Positions 24,195 through 48,755 of a DNA stretch of 64,000 nt are shown here, piece after piece (within the stretch, counting starts at the first letter, position 1; every line of letters begins with the position of its first letter). Below the pieces are notes generated by a model. That model was given only the letters and a program-made list of their open reading frames with translations. It was not told the origin of the DNA and made no database searches. Source of the stretch: Candidatus Flexifilum affinis (GTDB lineage: Bacteria > Chloroflexota > Anaerolineae > Aggregatilineales > Phototrophicaceae); NCBI GenBank assembly GCA_016713325.1, contig JADJPJ010000097.1:12596-76595 (forward strand), written 5' to 3'. The translations under genes and the position numbers were made by a program.

Positions 24195-24297
24195 CGGGGG
24201 AGCGGCCCGGGGGGGGGGGGGCCCCCGGCGGGGGGGGGCCGGGGGGGCCCCCCCCCCCCGGCGGGCGGGGGGGGGGGGGCCCCCCCCCCCCCCCCCC
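24195..24297. other. Pure G/C low-complexity tract, probable assembly artefact
   Basis: About 100 bases made almost entirely of runs of G and runs of C up to about 20 long, in the 280-base gap between the DUF4139 gene and GH51. Nothing else in the window has this composition. It probably replaces or corrupts the divergent promoter sequence. Confidence 0.75.
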
Positions 24298-24386: not shown

Positions 24387-25892
24387 ATGATTGAATCCCG
24401 CCTTACTGTTCGAGAAGATCGGCCCATCGGGACCATTTCGTCGCGCCTGTATGGGCACTTCGCCGAGCACCTGGGCCGCTGCTGCTACGACGGCCTGTGG
24501 GTGGGACTCGGCGACGTGGGCATTCCGACCACCGGCGGTTTTCGCAATGACGTGATCGCCGCGCTCAAGGCCATGCCCGTGCCGCTGCTGCGCTGGCCGG
24601 GCGGCTGCTATGCCGATCACTACCACTGGCGCGATGGCATCGGCGCGCCGGAAAGCCGCCCCCGCCGACTGGGCATGTCGTGCGGCTTGCAGGTCGAGGA
24701 CGACAACGGGCTGGGCACCCACGAGTTCATCGCCCTGTGCCGGCTGATCGGTGCAGAGCCGTATCTGGCGGGCAACATGGGCAGCGGCACGCCGCAGGAG
24801 CTGTGCGACTGGCTGGAGTACTGCAACGCGGCCATCAATACGACGCTGGCGGCCGAGCGGCGAGCCAACGGAGCGGCAGCGCCGTTCGGAGTCAAGCTGT
24901 GGGGCGTGGGCAACGAGAACTGGGGCTGCGGCGGCCACTTCGACGCCGAAAGCTACGCCGTCGAATACCGCCGCTTCGCGACCATGCTGCGCCACGTCGA
25001 TCCCACCGCCGAACTGGTGATCTGCGGCCACGACGACGCCTGGAATGAAACGCTCATCGAGGCCAGTCGGCGCCATATGTTCCTGATGGACCACTTCTCG
25101 ATCCACCGCTACTGGATTAACGGCGGCAAGGAACTCGACTTCGACGTCGATCACTACTACGGTCTGCTGGCCGAGGCCGATGCGACCGAGGACTTCGTCA
25201 TCCGTACCGCCGAGAAGATCCGCGGCACGCTGGCGGGTTCAGCGCACCCGACACACAGAGTTGGTATCGCGCTGGACGAGTGGGGGGTGTGGCATCCCGA
25301 GGCTCGGTCGTGGGGGCCGGATGGCGCCGAACTGCATCGTGATCCGACCACTTACGAGCAAGCCGGCACGCTGCGCGACGCGTTAGCCGCTGGCGCCGCC
25401 TTCGAGGGTTTCCACCGGCAGTGCAACGTGCTGACTCTGGCCAACCTGGCGCAGATCGTCAACGTACTGCATGCTCCGGTCATGACGGAAGGCCCGACGA
25501 TGTGGGTGACGCCGACCTACTATGCCTTCCAACTGCACGCGCCGCACATGGGCGCGCAGGCGCTGCCGGTCGAGGTGGCCTACGGCGCCTCCCTGCCCGG
25601 CTCTGCGTTCTCCAGCGCGGTGACCGGCACCGCCTCGGCCAGCGACGGCGGCACGGCGGTCACAGTGATGAACCGCCACATCGACCAGAGCGCGACGGTG
25701 ACGATCGACGTGGCCGGCACCAGCCGCTGCGTGGAAGCGCGTTTGCTCTCCGGCGACTCCCCGCGGGCCGTCAACAGCGCTCAGGAACCGGACCGCGTCG
25801 GCCTGTCGACGCTGGCAGTCAGCGCCGATGGGGCAGGCCGCTGGCGCGTCGAACTGCCGCCGCACTCCATGGCGACAATGAGGTTGGCTTAG
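24387..25892 (+). CDS. GH51 alpha-L-arabinofuranosidase
   Basis: 501 residues, the usual GH51 size. The TIM-barrel N-terminus reads ISSRLYGHFAEHLGRCCYDGLWVG and LLRWPGGCYADHYHWRDGIG. The acid/base Glu is in WGVGNENWGCGGH and the nucleophile Glu in IALDEWGVWHPE. The C-terminal 110 residues form the beta-sandwich (VTVMNRHIDQSATVTIDVAG). The enzyme removes terminal alpha-L-arabinofuranosyl units from arabinan or arabinoxylan oligosaccharides. It has no signal peptide, so it acts inside the cell on imported fragments. It stands alone between a divergent secreted protein and a convergent membrane protein. Confidence 0.95.
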   Translation: MIESRLTVREDRPIGTISSRLYGHFAEHLGRCCYDGLWVGLGDVGIPTTGGFRNDVIAALKAMPVPLLRWPGGCYADHYHWRDGIGAPESRPRRLGMSCGLQVEDDNGLGTHEFIALCRLIGAEPYLAGNMGSGTPQELCDWLEYCNAAINTTLAAERRANGAAAPFGVKLWGVGNENWGCGGHFDAESYAVEYRRFATMLRHVDPTAELVICGHDDAWNETLIEASRRHMFLMDHFSIHRYWINGGKELDFDVDHYYGLLAEADATEDFVIRTAEKIRGTLAGSAHPTHRVGIALDEWGVWHPEARSWGPDGAELHRDPTTYEQAGTLRDALAAGAAFEGFHRQCNVLTLANLAQIVNVLHAPVMTEGPTMWVTPTYYAFQLHAPHMGAQALPVEVAYGASLPGSAFSSAVTGTASASDGGTAVTVMNRHIDQSATVTIDVAGTSRCVEARLLSGDSPRAVNSAQEPDRVGLSTLAVSADGAGRWRVELPPHSMATMRLA

Positions 25893-43915: not shown

Positions 43916-44926
43916 TCACGACGACTCGCGCACGACGAGTTCGCTATAGACGATACTCTTGATCGGAATTGTCTCTTTGCCCTCAATCAGACGATGAAGT
44001 TTGCGCAGCGCCAGGACACCGATCTCGAATTTCGGGATATGAACGGTCGTCAGGGGAGGACGCGTATAGCCACTCTCCCTCGTGTTGTCGATGCTCGCAA
44101 TCGCGATGTCTCCTGGGATGCTCAGGCCAGCTTCCCGAATCGCCTCGATCGCGCCAAACGCGGTCTTGTCGCTGACCGCGATCACGGCAGTTGGGTGATC
44201 TCGCAATTCCAGAATCGCCTTCATCTGAACGTAACCCTTCAGCGGATGGCCGGATACGGGTTCTGGCATCCACTCTGCGGGGGGAAGGAGATACGATTCG
44301 GCCATGGCCGCCAGGCAGCCCCGAAATCGATCGACCAGACTGCTGTACTTGCTCGGCCCCTTCAGGATGGCGATTTTCCGGTGTCCACGGTCAAGCATAT
44401 GCCGGGCAATTTTGTAGCCGGCCATAAAATTGTCCCCTAACACACAGGGGAGTTTCTGTCCTTCGATATGGCTCTCGATCAACACAACCGGCACGTTGGG
44501 AGCCTGAAGTTGAATGACCATCTCCGGGAGGATATCGCCGTCATTGGCGACGGCAAACCCGGCCACAGTCTGAGCGAAGCCCGTCTTCAGCAAATCCAGA
44601 TCCTGAGTGTTGCGATCAAACGTCGACAGCAGGACGTGGTAACCCAGAGTTCCTGCTTCCGCCTGGAAGCCGCGAATGACATCGCCATAGAATACGTCAC
44701 TGATGGCCGGGATCGAGGATTGCTCGATGAGCAGACCGACCGACTCCGTCTTCGAACCATTTTGATCTGGCTTGATGACGTAGGACAGTTTCTCAATCGC
44801 TGTTCGGACCTTCTCAATGGTCTCCTCGGGAATTCCGGGTTTATTGTGAACAACCATCCATACCGTCGTCGCAGAGACTTCCGCCACCTGCGCTACATCA
44901 CGCATGGTTGCTTTCGACTTGGCCAA
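43916..44926 (-). CDS. LacI-family regulator of the third CUT1 operon
   Basis: 336 residues from a TTG start, supported by AGGAG eight bases upstream. The HTH reads ATMRDVAQVAEVSATTVWMVVHNKPGIPEETIEKV. The linker (YVIKPDQNGSKTESVGLLI) is slightly different from the standard hinge. The sensor domain ends PLTTVHIPKFEIGVLALRKL...ELVVRESS. The gene is divergent from the importer at 45362; a palindrome TGTTTACTAAACA lies 27 bases before its start and a related one sits in the operon leader, so it probably controls both units. Confidence 0.93.
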   Translation of the reverse strand: MAKSKATMRDVAQVAEVSATTVWMVVHNKPGIPEETIEKVRTAIEKLSYVIKPDQNGSKTESVGLLIEQSSIPAISDVFYGDVIRGFQAEAGTLGYHVLLSTFDRNTQDLDLLKTGFAQTVAGFAVANDGDILPEMVIQLQAPNVPVVLIESHIEGQKLPCVLGDNFMAGYKIARHMLDRGHRKIAILKGPSKYSSLVDRFRGCLAAMAESYLLPPAEWMPEPVSGHPLKGYVQMKAILELRDHPTAVIAVSDKTAFGAIEAIREAGLSIPGDIAIASIDNTRESGYTRPPLTTVHIPKFEIGVLALRKLHRLIEGKETIPIKSIVYSELVVRESS

Positions 44927-44952
44927 TCACGCTCTCCTGGATTCGCGACACC

Positions 44953-44965
44953 TGTTTACTAAACA
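44953..44965. promoter_or_regulatory. Candidate LacI operator (third importer operon)
   Basis: Perfect 6+1+6 palindrome TGTTTA-C-TAAACA, between the LacI start and the -35 box of the divergent importer promoter. A second site matching at 11 of 13 positions occurs at 45128-45140. Confidence 0.6.
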
Positions 44966-44992
44966 GACCGATGATATCCGTTTGACAATCAT

Positions 44993-45021
44993 TTGACAAG
45001 TGCAGCCAAGCGTAGTATTTT
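44993..45021 (+). promoter_or_regulatory. Sigma-70 promoter of the third importer operon
   Basis: Consensus TTGACA at 44993-44998, exactly 17 bases, TATTTT at 45016-45021. The start site would be near 45028, giving a leader of about 330 bases before the binding-protein gene. Confidence 0.65.
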
Positions 45022-45115
45022 TTAACTCGTTTAAGGGACAATTTCTTTCGTGAGACCTGATGATAACTCTTGGCACTCTGAAGATATCGGAATCTTCTCA
45101 AAATACGCTCGCTCG

Positions 45116-45160
45116 CTGCGTCAGGCATGTTTAGTGAACATGTCTGACGCAGTTTTGTTT
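45116..45160 (+). terminator. Terminator-like hairpin in the leader of the third importer operon
   Basis: Long stem with arms CTGCGTCAGGCATGTT/AACATGTCTGACGCAG (one G-T pair) around a TAGTG loop, followed by TTTTGTTT. No gene ends upstream on the plus strand, so it lies inside the leader of the importer transcript. Its apex contains TGTTTAGTGAACA, a near copy of the LacI operator at 44953. It may be an attenuator, an extended operator, or both. Confidence 0.6.
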
Positions 45161-45361
45161 GATGATGCTTGAGCGTGTTCACTATCATGAGGTCAACGAG
45201 CCTGATACGAAGGCCATGAACTCGTTTGGCCAGCCGGACCGGCTTGGAGTCAGAGAAGCGGTCACCACCGCAGAAAGGAGTTCACTGACGGATCCAATGG
45301 AGCCGTATCTGAGAACTGCACTTGAATGGCCATTCAATTAAAACTGAATCTGGAGGACACA

Positions 45362-46678
45362 ATGAGTAAGCGAATGTCGCTTTTGCTGGTCATCGCCATC
45401 CTGGTTGGGACTTTCGGGATTGGCGTGACACAGGCTCAGGATGCGACCGAGTTGAGCCTGTGGGTTTTTGTCGAGCGGCACGGCACTTTCATGCAGAATC
45501 AGGCCGCGCGCTGGAACGAGGTCAACCCGGACCGTCCGATCAACCTCACTTTCGAGACGATCGAATACACACAGATGCACGACAACCTGCTGGCATCGCT
45601 GCTGGTCGGCATGGGCGCGCCAGATCTCGCAGATGTGGAGATCAAGAAATTCGCGACCTTCACCAAGGGCGATATCCAGTTTGTTCCGCTGAACGATGCC
45701 ATTGATCCCTACCGCGCCGACATCATTGAGTCGCGCCTGGCGCCCTATACGGCCGGCGGAAACAACTATGGTATCGACTACCATCTGGGGTCGTTCGTGA
45801 TGTATTACAACACCGCGATCCTGGAAGCTGCCGGTGTGGATGTCAACAGCATCGTGACGTGGGATGACTATATCGAAGCAGGCAAGAAGGTCACCCAGGA
45901 TACCGACGGCGACGGCACGCCCGATGTCTATATGACCACCATCGAAACCACCGACATCTTCTCGACCTACCCGATCATGCTGATGATGGGCGGCGGCACT
46001 TACAACGCCGAGGGCGACATCATCCTGGACAGCCCCGAAAACGTGGCCGCGCTCCAGTTCGTGCAGGATCTCGTCCATGTTCACGGCATTGCCCGCCCTG
46101 TCTCCGGTGGTAACCATCACTCCGCAGATAACTACCTTGACCTGACGGAGGGCCGCGTGGCTTCGCTGTGGATGCCGCAGTGGTACATGACGCGCTTCCC
46201 GGACAACATGAGCAGCGCCCTGGCGGCCGTCGAGGTTGTGCGGCCCATGCCGATCTTTGAAGAAGGCGGCTACACCACGACGATGGGCGGCGGCACCGGC
46301 ACCGTCATCACTAACCAGATCGACCCGAGCAAGGTGGAACTGGCGAAGGAATTCCTGGCGTTCGCGAAGCTGACCTACGATGCCAACGTCGCCCTGTGGA
46401 CGGACCTTGGTTTTGACCCGATGCGCGTCGACGTGTATGAAGACCCGGCGCTGCTGATCACCATGGACGACTTCATGGGCGAGGTTCCCTTCACCTACAT
46501 TAAGGCAGGGCTGGGCAACGTGGCGCCGGAATACACCGGCCCATTCTATCCGGAGATCGCGACGATCTTCCAGACGACTGTACTCTATGACCTGCTCGAA
46601 AATCAGATGGCGCCGGATGAGGTCATTGCGGCGGCACTCTCTGAGCTACAGGCCATGGGTGCTCCTGTGGGCGGCTAG
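45362..46678 (+). CDS. CUT1 ABC importer, sugar-binding protein (third operon)
   Basis: 438 residues from ATG at 45362, supported by GGAGG seven bases upstream. The signal peptide is MSKRMSLLLVIAILVGTFGIGVTQAQ, with no lipobox. The mature part has the family-1 layout: TELSLWVFVERHGTFMQNQAARW, ADVEIKKFATF, GSFVMYYNTAILEAAGVDVNSIVTWDDY, and DTDGDGTPDVYMTTIE, a possible calcium loop. Ligand unknown; unlike the other two operons, no catabolic enzyme follows the permeases. Confidence 0.92.
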   Translation: MSKRMSLLLVIAILVGTFGIGVTQAQDATELSLWVFVERHGTFMQNQAARWNEVNPDRPINLTFETIEYTQMHDNLLASLLVGMGAPDLADVEIKKFATFTKGDIQFVPLNDAIDPYRADIIESRLAPYTAGGNNYGIDYHLGSFVMYYNTAILEAAGVDVNSIVTWDDYIEAGKKVTQDTDGDGTPDVYMTTIETTDIFSTYPIMLMMGGGTYNAEGDIILDSPENVAALQFVQDLVHVHGIARPVSGGNHHSADNYLDLTEGRVASLWMPQWYMTRFPDNMSSALAAVEVVRPMPIFEEGGYTTTMGGGTGTVITNQIDPSKVELAKEFLAFAKLTYDANVALWTDLGFDPMRVDVYEDPALLITMDDFMGEVPFTYIKAGLGNVAPEYTGPFYPEIATIFQTTVLYDLLENQMAPDEVIAAALSELQAMGAPVGG

Positions 46679-46690
46679 CTGCCTCGCATG

Positions 46691-46728
46691 CGTGGAAGAG
46701 GTACCCTGGAGAGGGCACCTCTTCCACG
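46691..46728 (+). other. Intercistronic stem-loop between binding protein and permease genes
   Basis: Long stem CGTGGAAGAGGTACCCT/GAGGGCACCTCTTCCACG, 12 bases after the binding-protein stop and 43 before the permease start. No T-run. Same arrangement as at 16080 and 34722. Confidence 0.65.
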
Positions 46729-46771: not shown

Positions 46772-47671
46772 TTGCTACGTTCACTCTCCACGACACTGAA
46801 CAACAAGAAGGTCGTTCCTTTCGTATTCCTGATTCCCTTCCTGGCAGTGTTCACGGTCTTCAAAATCTACCCGGTCATTCTGGCCGTGATCATGAGCTTC
46901 CAGAATTTCCAGGGCATCCAGAGTCAGGAATGGGTGGGTCTGGCCAACTATCAGAATGTCTTCCAACTGGTGCGCTTCAACCAGGCGCTGGCCAACACCA
47001 CGATCTACACTATCGGGACCCTGCTGATACTGATTCCGCTACCCTTGGTCCTGGCGGTGCTGCTGGATTCGGGGCGCGTGGTTCAGACCACGGTGTTCAG
47101 GACGCTCATCTTCCTGCCTGCGCTGACCTCGCTGGTCGTCGCAGGGACCGTCTTCCGGCTGATCCTTTCCGAAAATGGTTTTCTCAACCTCTTTCTTGAA
47201 TCAACCCTGGGCATCCGGCCGTTACGCTGGCTCGAGGTCTCCGATCTGGCCCTGCCCTCCCTGATCCTGGTCGCGGCCTGGCGCTGGACCGGCATCAACA
47301 TCCTTTATTTCAACGCGGGGTTGGTCAACATCCCCCGCGAGTATTACGAAGCCGCGGTGATTGATGGGGCCAATCCCTTCCAGATCTTCTGGCGCATCAC
47401 CCTTCCGCTGCTCAGGCCCACCACCCTGTTCGTCATCGTGCTGAGCATCATCGGCGGTTATCAGGTCTTCGTCGAGCCGTTCATCATCTACCTGGGCGGT
47501 GCAGGCCCGGGTGATGGCGCCCTCACGATGGCCCTGTTGATCTACCGTACCGCATTCACCTCGTTCAACTTCGGCACGGCCGCTGCCATGGGCGTGATCC
47601 TGGCCGCGATCATCTTTGTATTCTCGCTCATCCAGTTCCGCTTCTTCGGCGTGTTTAGGCAGGAGGATTGA
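46772..47671 (+). CDS. CUT1 ABC importer, permease (MalF-like, third operon)
   Basis: 299 residues from a TTG start with AGAGGA upstream. Begins MLRSLSTTLNNKKVVPFVFLIPFLAVFTVFKIYP, an F-type subunit opening, with six membrane segments. The EAA loop is EAAVIDGANPFQIFWRITLPLLRP. The following permease begins six bases after its stop. Confidence 0.92.
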   Translation: MLRSLSTTLNNKKVVPFVFLIPFLAVFTVFKIYPVILAVIMSFQNFQGIQSQEWVGLANYQNVFQLVRFNQALANTTIYTIGTLLILIPLPLVLAVLLDSGRVVQTTVFRTLIFLPALTSLVVAGTVFRLILSENGFLNLFLESTLGIRPLRWLEVSDLALPSLILVAAWRWTGINILYFNAGLVNIPREYYEAAVIDGANPFQIFWRITLPLLRPTTLFVIVLSIIGGYQVFVEPFIIYLGGAGPGDGALTMALLIYRTAFTSFNFGTAAAMGVILAAIIFVFSLIQFRFFGVFRQED

Positions 47672-47676
47672 ATTCG

Positions 47677-48606
47677 ATGTCTGAACAGGCTTCCGACGCG
47701 GCATTGACCAAACAGGCTACCCGCAGCGCCCTGGCCAACCAGGTGTCCACCTCTCCGACGCGGGGACCGGTACGTCACAGAAGACGCCTGGATCCCACCA
47801 AGGTCGTGCTGACCCTGTTTTTCGTCGTCCTGGCCATCGTATTCGTGTTTCCTCTCTACTGGATGGTGATCAGCTCGCTGCGTCCTGAAGGACGCGTCTT
47901 TGTGGACGCCTTTGATCTCATTCCCAACGCGCTGTCGCTCGACACCTACCGCACGCTTTTTGAAGAGGAACCGTTCGGGCGCTGGATCATCAACTCGGTC
48001 GTGCAGACCGGCGGTTTTGCCTTCACCGCGCTGTTCCTCTGTACGACCGGGGGCTACGCACTGGCGAAGTTCAACTTCCGCGGACGAAATCTGCTGTTCC
48101 TGCTGATCCTCGTCTCGCAGATGATTCCGTTCCACCTGCTGATCGTCTCGCTGTTTCTGATCATCATCCAGCTGGGATTGGTGGAGAGCTACCTGGGCGC
48201 GATTATTCCGATTGCGGCATCGCCCATCGGCATCTTCTTCGTCCGGCAGTACATGCTCTCGATCGACGACGAAATGCTGAACGCGGCGCGGGTCGACGGC
48301 GCGAACGAGTATCAGATCTTCTTCTCGATCGTTCTGCCCAACGCCCGCCCGGCGATTGCCACTTTGTTTATCCTGTTCTCGCTGGAGTACTGGAATAACC
48401 TGCTCTGGCCCCTGATCGTGTTCCGAGAGGCGGAGAACATGCCGCTGGCGGTAGGCATCCAGCGGTTGGTTAACCAGTATCGGCAGGCATATGATCTGGT
48501 CATGGCCGGCTCGACCCTCGCGACCTTACCGATCGTCGTCCTCTTCCTGTTCCTGCGCCGGCAGGTCATGGAAGGACTGGCGTCAACCGGTACAGGCATG
48601 AAATAG
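47677..48606 (+). CDS. CUT1 ABC importer, permease (MalG-like, third operon)
   Basis: 309 residues from ATG at 47677, placed ten bases after AGGAGG; an in-frame TTG at 47668 is too close to that site. A polar N-terminal region of about 40 residues precedes KVVLTLFFVVLAIVFVFPLYW and five further membrane segments. The EAA loop is NAARVDGANEYQIFFSIVLPNARP. C-terminus RRQVMEGLASTGTGMK, as in G-type subunits. Last gene of its operon; no ATPase. Confidence 0.92.
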   Translation: MSEQASDAALTKQATRSALANQVSTSPTRGPVRHRRRLDPTKVVLTLFFVVLAIVFVFPLYWMVISSLRPEGRVFVDAFDLIPNALSLDTYRTLFEEEPFGRWIINSVVQTGGFAFTALFLCTTGGYALAKFNFRGRNLLFLLILVSQMIPFHLLIVSLFLIIIQLGLVESYLGAIIPIAASPIGIFFVRQYMLSIDDEMLNAARVDGANEYQIFFSIVLPNARPAIATLFILFSLEYWNNLLWPLIVFREAENMPLAVGIQRLVNQYRQAYDLVMAGSTLATLPIVVLFLFLRRQVMEGLASTGTGMK

Positions 48607-48670
48607 GAAAACAGGAGCGACACTCAGACGAGGTCCACTCTACAGGCGACTCTCCTTCTGATCGAGACAC

Positions 48671-48708
48671 GCAGAGCGAAGGCGTACCCGAGTATGCCTT
48701 CGCTCTGC
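48671..48708 (+). terminator. Stem-loop after the third importer operon
   Basis: Perfect 13-bp stem GCAGAGCGAAGGC/GCCTTCGCTCTGC around a 12-base loop, between the convergent permease and flavodoxin genes. It lacks a T-run. Confidence 0.5.
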
Positions 48709-48755
48709 GCATTCATGGCTCATTCTGGTTGGCGTATCGGAAGTGGCAGATTGGC

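Follow-up and report, generated by a model that had tools for sequence, protein, structure and literature searches.

An operator-like palindrome forms the apex of a terminator-like hairpin in a Chloroflexota importer operon leader

Sequence comparison supports the view that a single segment in the leader of an importer operon of Candidatus Flexifilum affinis carries both an operator-like and a terminator-like signal, as it does in most loci of a small clade. The operon (a solute-binding protein and two permeases) lies divergent from a lacI gene in the stretch of 64,000 nucleotides analyzed here, hereafter the window. The downstream operator of this LacI-family repressor would form the tip of a terminator hairpin, acting as a repressor site in DNA first and as a terminator in RNA once copied, a reading to which we give an even chance. 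The features of the locus are as follows.

43916-44926, minus strand: gene for a LacI-family repressor, with a TTG start codon; PF00356 and PF13377 both exceed their Pfam cut-offs; binding to O1 and O2 predicted
44953-44965, no strand assigned: O1, operator-like palindrome TGTTTACTAAACA, covering the putative start site of lacI and retained, with at most two mismatches, in 23 of 27 loci
44971-44999, minus strand: promoter-like pair of lacI, TTGTCA-17-TATCAT, from a consensus scan only
44993-45021, plus strand: predicted operon promoter TTGACA-17-TATTTT, between O1 and O2, with a putative start at about 45028
45060-45134, plus strand: predicted short leader open reading frame (ORF) of 24 codons, its stop inside the hairpin loop
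45115-45153, plus strand: terminator-like hairpin of 18 pairs with a 3-base loop, its apex being O2
45128-45140, no strand assigned: O2, operator-like palindrome TGTTTAGTGAACA, an 11/13 copy of O1, centred at about +107 of the predicted transcript
45153-45160, plus strand: T-rich tail TTTTGTTT, with a tail score of 4.95 (background mean 2.09)
45165-45341, plus strand: C-terminal remnant of a deleted alpha-L-arabinofuranosidase gene (BLASTP to locus L002; tblastn 45186-45338)
45362-46678, plus strand: importer solute-binding protein (PF01547)
46772-47671, plus strand: importer permease 1 (PF00528)
47668-48606, plus strand: importer permease 2 (PF00528)

The repressor is a member of the LacI/GalR family, with a helix-turn-helix domain (PF00356, 40.5 bits against a cut-off of 27) and a periplasmic-binding-protein-like domain (PF13377, 112.5 bits against 26.5). 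Its named relatives were mainly from Anaerolineae and other Chloroflexota MAGs, and a cultured relative, Aggregatilinea lenta, carries a homologue of 67% identity. Scanning genome contigs for relatives retrieved 34 loci, of which 29 were orthologous (53-84% identity) and five were distant paralogues (L030-L034, 25-29% identity) that were excluded from every comparison. A wider search matched 12 of the 154 genomes of the order at E<=1e-150, and by place, identity and contig these were loci already in the set. The recognition helix of the window LacI is unusual (VSATTVWMV), and alignment positions V22 and W23 are invariant across 29 rows. LacI proteins usually have a hinge helix just after the helix-turn-helix; no such stretch was recognizable in the window LacI, which, aligned with CcpA, is missing the residues at that point, and this gap may be linked to the odd operator described below. 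The E. coli LacI carries a C-terminal tetramer helix. The window protein ends at residue 336 and has no room for one, so that a DNA loop would need GalR-like pairing.

An earlier reading of the same DNA, the first-pass annotation, had placed a promoter at 44993-45021, a long hairpin followed by TTTTGTTT in the leader and, at the hairpin apex, a 13-base near copy of the palindrome upstream of lacI. Sequence and coordinates of the promoter proved correct, as did the count of 11 matching bases out of 13, and the hairpin was recovered as the 18-pair stem with its adjoining tail. Among the seven close loci, the -35 and -10 elements of this promoter are conserved (0.96 and 0.86) compared with the spacer between them (0.48). 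The leader of about 330 bases agrees in length with the 334 bases separating the predicted start from the importer ATG, but only the first ~137 of these are leader, and 45165-45338 encodes the remnant of a gene.

That gene encoded an alpha-L-arabinofuranosidase, of which the last ~51 codons are left in the window and the rest is gone. The remnant shares 53% identity over 51 residues with its counterpart in L002 (BLASTP, E 1.9e-14; best of 100 shuffles 0.005), and a Pfam search with its 58 residues returned no family. An alpha-L-arabinofuranosidase gene adjoins lacI on the operon side in 14 of the 29 loci (L001-L005, L008, L011, L012, L015, L018, L020-L022 and L025), and is likewise missing beside lacI in L006. 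In L004 it encodes PF06964 and PF22848 and starts ~65 bases past the centre of O2. The ancestral operon most likely comprised the arabinofuranosidase and the importer, and an arabinose-containing sugar may be the inducer. A second, distant arabinofuranosidase-like gene (31% identity) is located at 24396-25880 of the window. We also observed a stretch, CCTACTATA, common to L001, L004 and L005 and located past the T tract but ahead of the arabinofuranosidase start, which might be a second -10 element. In L008, L010 and L011, leader ORFs of 60, 53 and 57 codons have stop codons overlapping the next ATG (ATGA). This ATG begins the arabinofuranosidase gene in L008 and L011, and the overlap may reflect translational coupling.

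The conservation of O1 and O2 was assessed in 27 regions that include at least 400 bases upstream of lacI, one from the window and 26 from other loci (L009, L019 and L028 had fewer and were excluded from this count). In 23 of the 27 regions one site was located no more than 45 bases from the lacI start and another at 46-300 bases, each with at most two mismatches, compared with a maximum of 2 in any of 60 surrogate sets. The first site had zero mismatches in 20 regions and both sites did in 11, while the pair was absent from L023, L024, L026 and L027, which form the group with 53-56% identity. Searches with the exact motif in six close genomes (~37 Mb) retrieved 6 sites in 5 genomes (9 strand-wise matches), all beside orthologous lacI genes; a reversed control pattern gave 5 strand-wise matches in the same genomes. 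A wider regulon was rejected, with zero exact sites away from the locus in the six genomes. These comparisons support O2 as a conserved operator-like site. Both palindromes are odd and lack a central CG, and they belong among the 4% of non-canonical operators, the section of a LacI-family survey on motif symmetry (section 9, PMC4052901) giving even motifs for 1251 of 1303 factors and a CG centre for 1173. A weaker operator-like copy was observed 20-24 bp from O1 in L002, L003 and L004 and from O2 in L010, L012, L014 and L029, resembling the cooperative tandem LacI-family sites seen as spacing peaks in the same section of that survey (PMC4052901), and the number of operators may therefore exceed two in several relatives.

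The plus strand of the window was scanned for stems with perfect or G-U pairing that enclose loops of 3-8 bases. The O2 hairpin was second in length, level with an 18-pair stem at 48670-48709, behind a palindromic G and C homopolymer run of 19 pairs (24241-24286) that adjoins the distant arabinofuranosidase-like gene and is possibly an assembly artefact. Twelve first-order surrogates of the window yielded at most 14 pairs on the plus strand, and when the 13 operator bases were kept fixed and both 20-base flanks were shuffled, none of 500 sequences folded as well (z -7.3), placing the O2 hairpin beyond chance. Long stems as such are not unique in the window, given the stem at 48670-48709, situated at the operon end, and another of 17 pairs at 46691-46728 (minus-strand scan) after the solute-binding protein gene. 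A dispersed repeat was rejected: besides its own arms, the 16-base arm has two matches in the window, with 3 mismatches each, and the hairpins of the relatives differ in letters. The exact hairpin had no match in viral contigs.

We then compared the 24 loci with O2, the O2 positions having been hand-picked among matches with at most two mismatches. A hairpin centred on O2 and better than its flank shuffles was present in five (the window, L001, L002, L004 and L005; z -3.0 to -8.0), and L003 and L006 had weak stems on O2 (z -1.4). The other 17 had no O2 hairpin better than flank shuffles; the fold of L007 (z -2.9) is not centred on O2. Weak O2 hairpins were also seen in L021 (-7.4 kcal/mol, z 0.0) and L022 (-5.0 kcal/mol, z -0.5), two related loci outside the clade described next, to which O2 hairpins are thus not strictly confined. 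In a LacI tree built without L029 (broken lacI frame, 137 aa), the window and L001-L006 form one clade (support 100/99) within a larger set that has O2 and no comparable hairpin. This distribution would be explained most simply if the hairpin was gained in this seven-locus clade and weakened in two of its loci.

The pairing within the clade is maintained despite divergence in sequence. In the seven-locus alignment 83.9% of cells pair, compared with 31-46% after sliding one side along by 1-3 columns. Ten of the 17 pairs have changed on both sides, a number reached by 2 of 500 shuffles, and the covariation score was reached by none of 500; seven sequences make a small sample, and their kinship inflates the shuffle control, so that the sliding control is the better one. 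Identity is 0.41 in the arms, 0.40 in the leader background and 0.82 in O2, indicating that the letters of the arms drift while their pairing is kept. The five strong hairpins have T-tail scores of 3.2-5.4 on the operon strand versus 1.5-2.8 on the other (background: 11.3% at 2.9 or above), with stem ends set by hand; L003 (1.6) and L006 (1.7) have no T tail. The sequence pattern of an intrinsic terminator, a G+C-containing stem followed by a T-rich tract, thus appears in five loci and not in L003 and L006. With a compensated stem and T-rich tails in the clade, and O2 without a comparable hairpin outside it, it appears that an intrinsic terminator was assembled around a repressor site of older date.

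We found no sign of an RNA switch. Rfam gave zero matches at gathering score in the whole window, which led us to reject a riboswitch or known RNA family; within 44900-45400 its output was limited to a pair of weak microRNA matches (E 0.86 and 1.5). An RNA antiterminator was also rejected, as the leader up to the apex folded no better than shuffled upstream sequence in the seven loci (z -0.4 to +1.6). Neither an aptamer nor a competing upstream structure, as expected of a riboswitch or RNA-switch attenuator, was therefore seen. The first-pass annotation had assigned a dual role to this segment, as repressor site and as RNA attenuator or roadblock. The operator-like O2, the compensated stem and the T-rich tails argue for that duality, but regulated attenuation gained no support, there being no competing structure and no Rfam match.

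Readthrough could instead be controlled by a ribosome, which is the main rival explanation: a ribosome on the short leader ORF would enter the 5' arm and prevent the terminator from forming, and readthrough would follow translation, not LacI. All seven clade loci have an ATG 67-74 bases ahead of the O2 centre, the frame reaches or passes the apex in five of them, and the block containing this ATG (45058-45065), which could be the start of the ORF or another site, is the best-conserved stretch of the leader (0.66 versus a median of 0.38 in the window and L001-L006). However, the peptides of the clade have no common sequence and range from 6 to 83 codons, those of L003 and L005 stop before the hairpin, and no clear ribosome-binding site was apparent by eye. 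The leader ORFs of the outgroup loci L008 and L011 differ at 5 synonymous and 8 non-synonymous codons, with no sign of protein constraint. On balance we consider control by translation unlikely.

Much the same standing is given to an RNA element that is no terminator, and that would protect or process the 5' region of the mRNA or make up the 3'-terminal part of a small leader RNA that has a role of its own. A compensated stem fits any RNA function and the L004 arabinofuranosidase start is close behind O2, but T-rich tails follow directly on the five strong stems, on the operon strand only, and the tailless stem at 48670-48709 suggests that such tails are no general habit of stems here. The strand bias of the tails also speaks against a role in DNA only, in which the long palindrome would serve as an extended operator or form a cruciform, leaving the RNA idle. 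LacI-type proteins do bind palindromes, and O2 is one; yet the arms vary between loci while staying complementary, which base-reading proteins do not demand, and O1 has no arms like those flanking O2, making this a very improbable explanation. Chance or an assembly artefact, for which the further long stems of the window might be cited, can be almost wholly discounted, since the hairpin is common to, and compensated in, independent genomes of one clade.

If the downstream operator is indeed the tip of a terminator, the locus would most likely work as a two-stage lock. Without inducer, LacI bound to both operators would enclose the intervening promoter in a loop, and LacI at O2 would block the polymerase. 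Leaked transcripts would fold the hairpin and stop at 45153-45160, ~130 bases in. A polymerase halted by LacI would presumably stand before the 3' arm is made, and the roadblock and the terminator would thus act in sequence: a polymerase passing O2 would copy the 3' arm and stop in the T tract. Inducer would release LacI from the DNA, and the terminator, of moderate strength, would let enough polymerases pass. LacI binding, looping, the roadblock, termination, readthrough and the inducer are all put forward here as predictions.

The position of O2 at about +107 favours a roadblock, being near the 102-bp spacer used in the E. coli LacI roadblock construct described in PMC4132739. Several points count against the lock. 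The weak, tailless stems of L003 and L006 suggest that these two loci can do without the hairpin, expression under induction would also be reduced by a fixed terminator, and GalR at the gal OI operator did not block transcription in vitro on the native sequence, as outlined in PMC4693257. Looping finds no clear support in the helical phasing of the O1-O2 spacings, for which Rayleigh tests gave p values of 0.018, 0.057 and 0.0008 at 10, 10.5 and 11 bp for 24 loci, and of 0.065, 0.41 and 0.015 for the 14 distinct spacings. In evolutionary terms, an old leader palindrome may have been extended outwards into a terminator, its apex read by protein and its arms by RNA pairing, so that the two stages of the lock would have become inseparable in evolution. 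We hold this view tentatively, rating it slightly lower because of the weak O2 hairpins in L021 and L022.

Roadblock, termination and control of initiation usually reside in separate DNA segments; here one segment of 37 bases would be under two constraints. Some relatives have the operator but nothing comparable to the hairpin, others the complete structure and others again a weak version of it. With such a series one can test how an RNA function is acquired by a repressor site, and also if the off state becomes tighter when a terminator is added to a roadblock. If true, the arrangement would offer a compact design for tight switches. The locus also suggests arabinofuranosides as the substrate of an otherwise anonymous importer.

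The looped complex of gal repression in E. coli includes HU. As in gal, a LacI/GalR-family repressor of a sugar operon would have one operator upstream and one in the transcribed region, with the promoter between, and O1 and O2 do lie one on each side of the promoter, as a gal-type loop requires; the gal operators for GalR are OE at -60.5 and OI at +53.5, according to the gal review (PMC4693257). The operators are 113 bp apart in gal (PMC4693257) and 175 bp apart here, and, unlike in gal, the second site caps a terminator-like stem, with a divergent lacI sharing the region; a term search of the review text did not turn up any hairpin. Each component (an operator within a transcribed region, a roadblock, a leader terminator) is already known, as indicated by the parts of PMC4693257, PMC4132739, PMC6504234 and PMC10310618 that deal with them. 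The first-pass annotation knew of no described case of the exact arrangement, and a fixed-word search of titles and opening abstracts in the open-access literature agreed, retrieving no operator at a terminator-hairpin apex, which is weak evidence of absence. Leader attenuators and riboswitches share the terminator-like leader hairpin before the first gene; in this leader no aptamer or competing structure was found. In the E. coli LacI roadblock the repressor stops polymerase ~100 bp downstream of the start, as proposed here, but in the account of PMC4132739 this is an engineered reporter in which the stalled polymerase is removed mainly by Mfd and not by a terminator hairpin. The YtgR operator of Chlamydia trpRBA differs in being iron-dependent and in not lying in the leader of its own first gene, and its authors suggest steric blockage, maybe independent of RNA structure; like the segment proposed here, however, it is described in PMC6504234 as a site at which a DNA-bound repressor both represses initiation and ends transcripts arriving from upstream.
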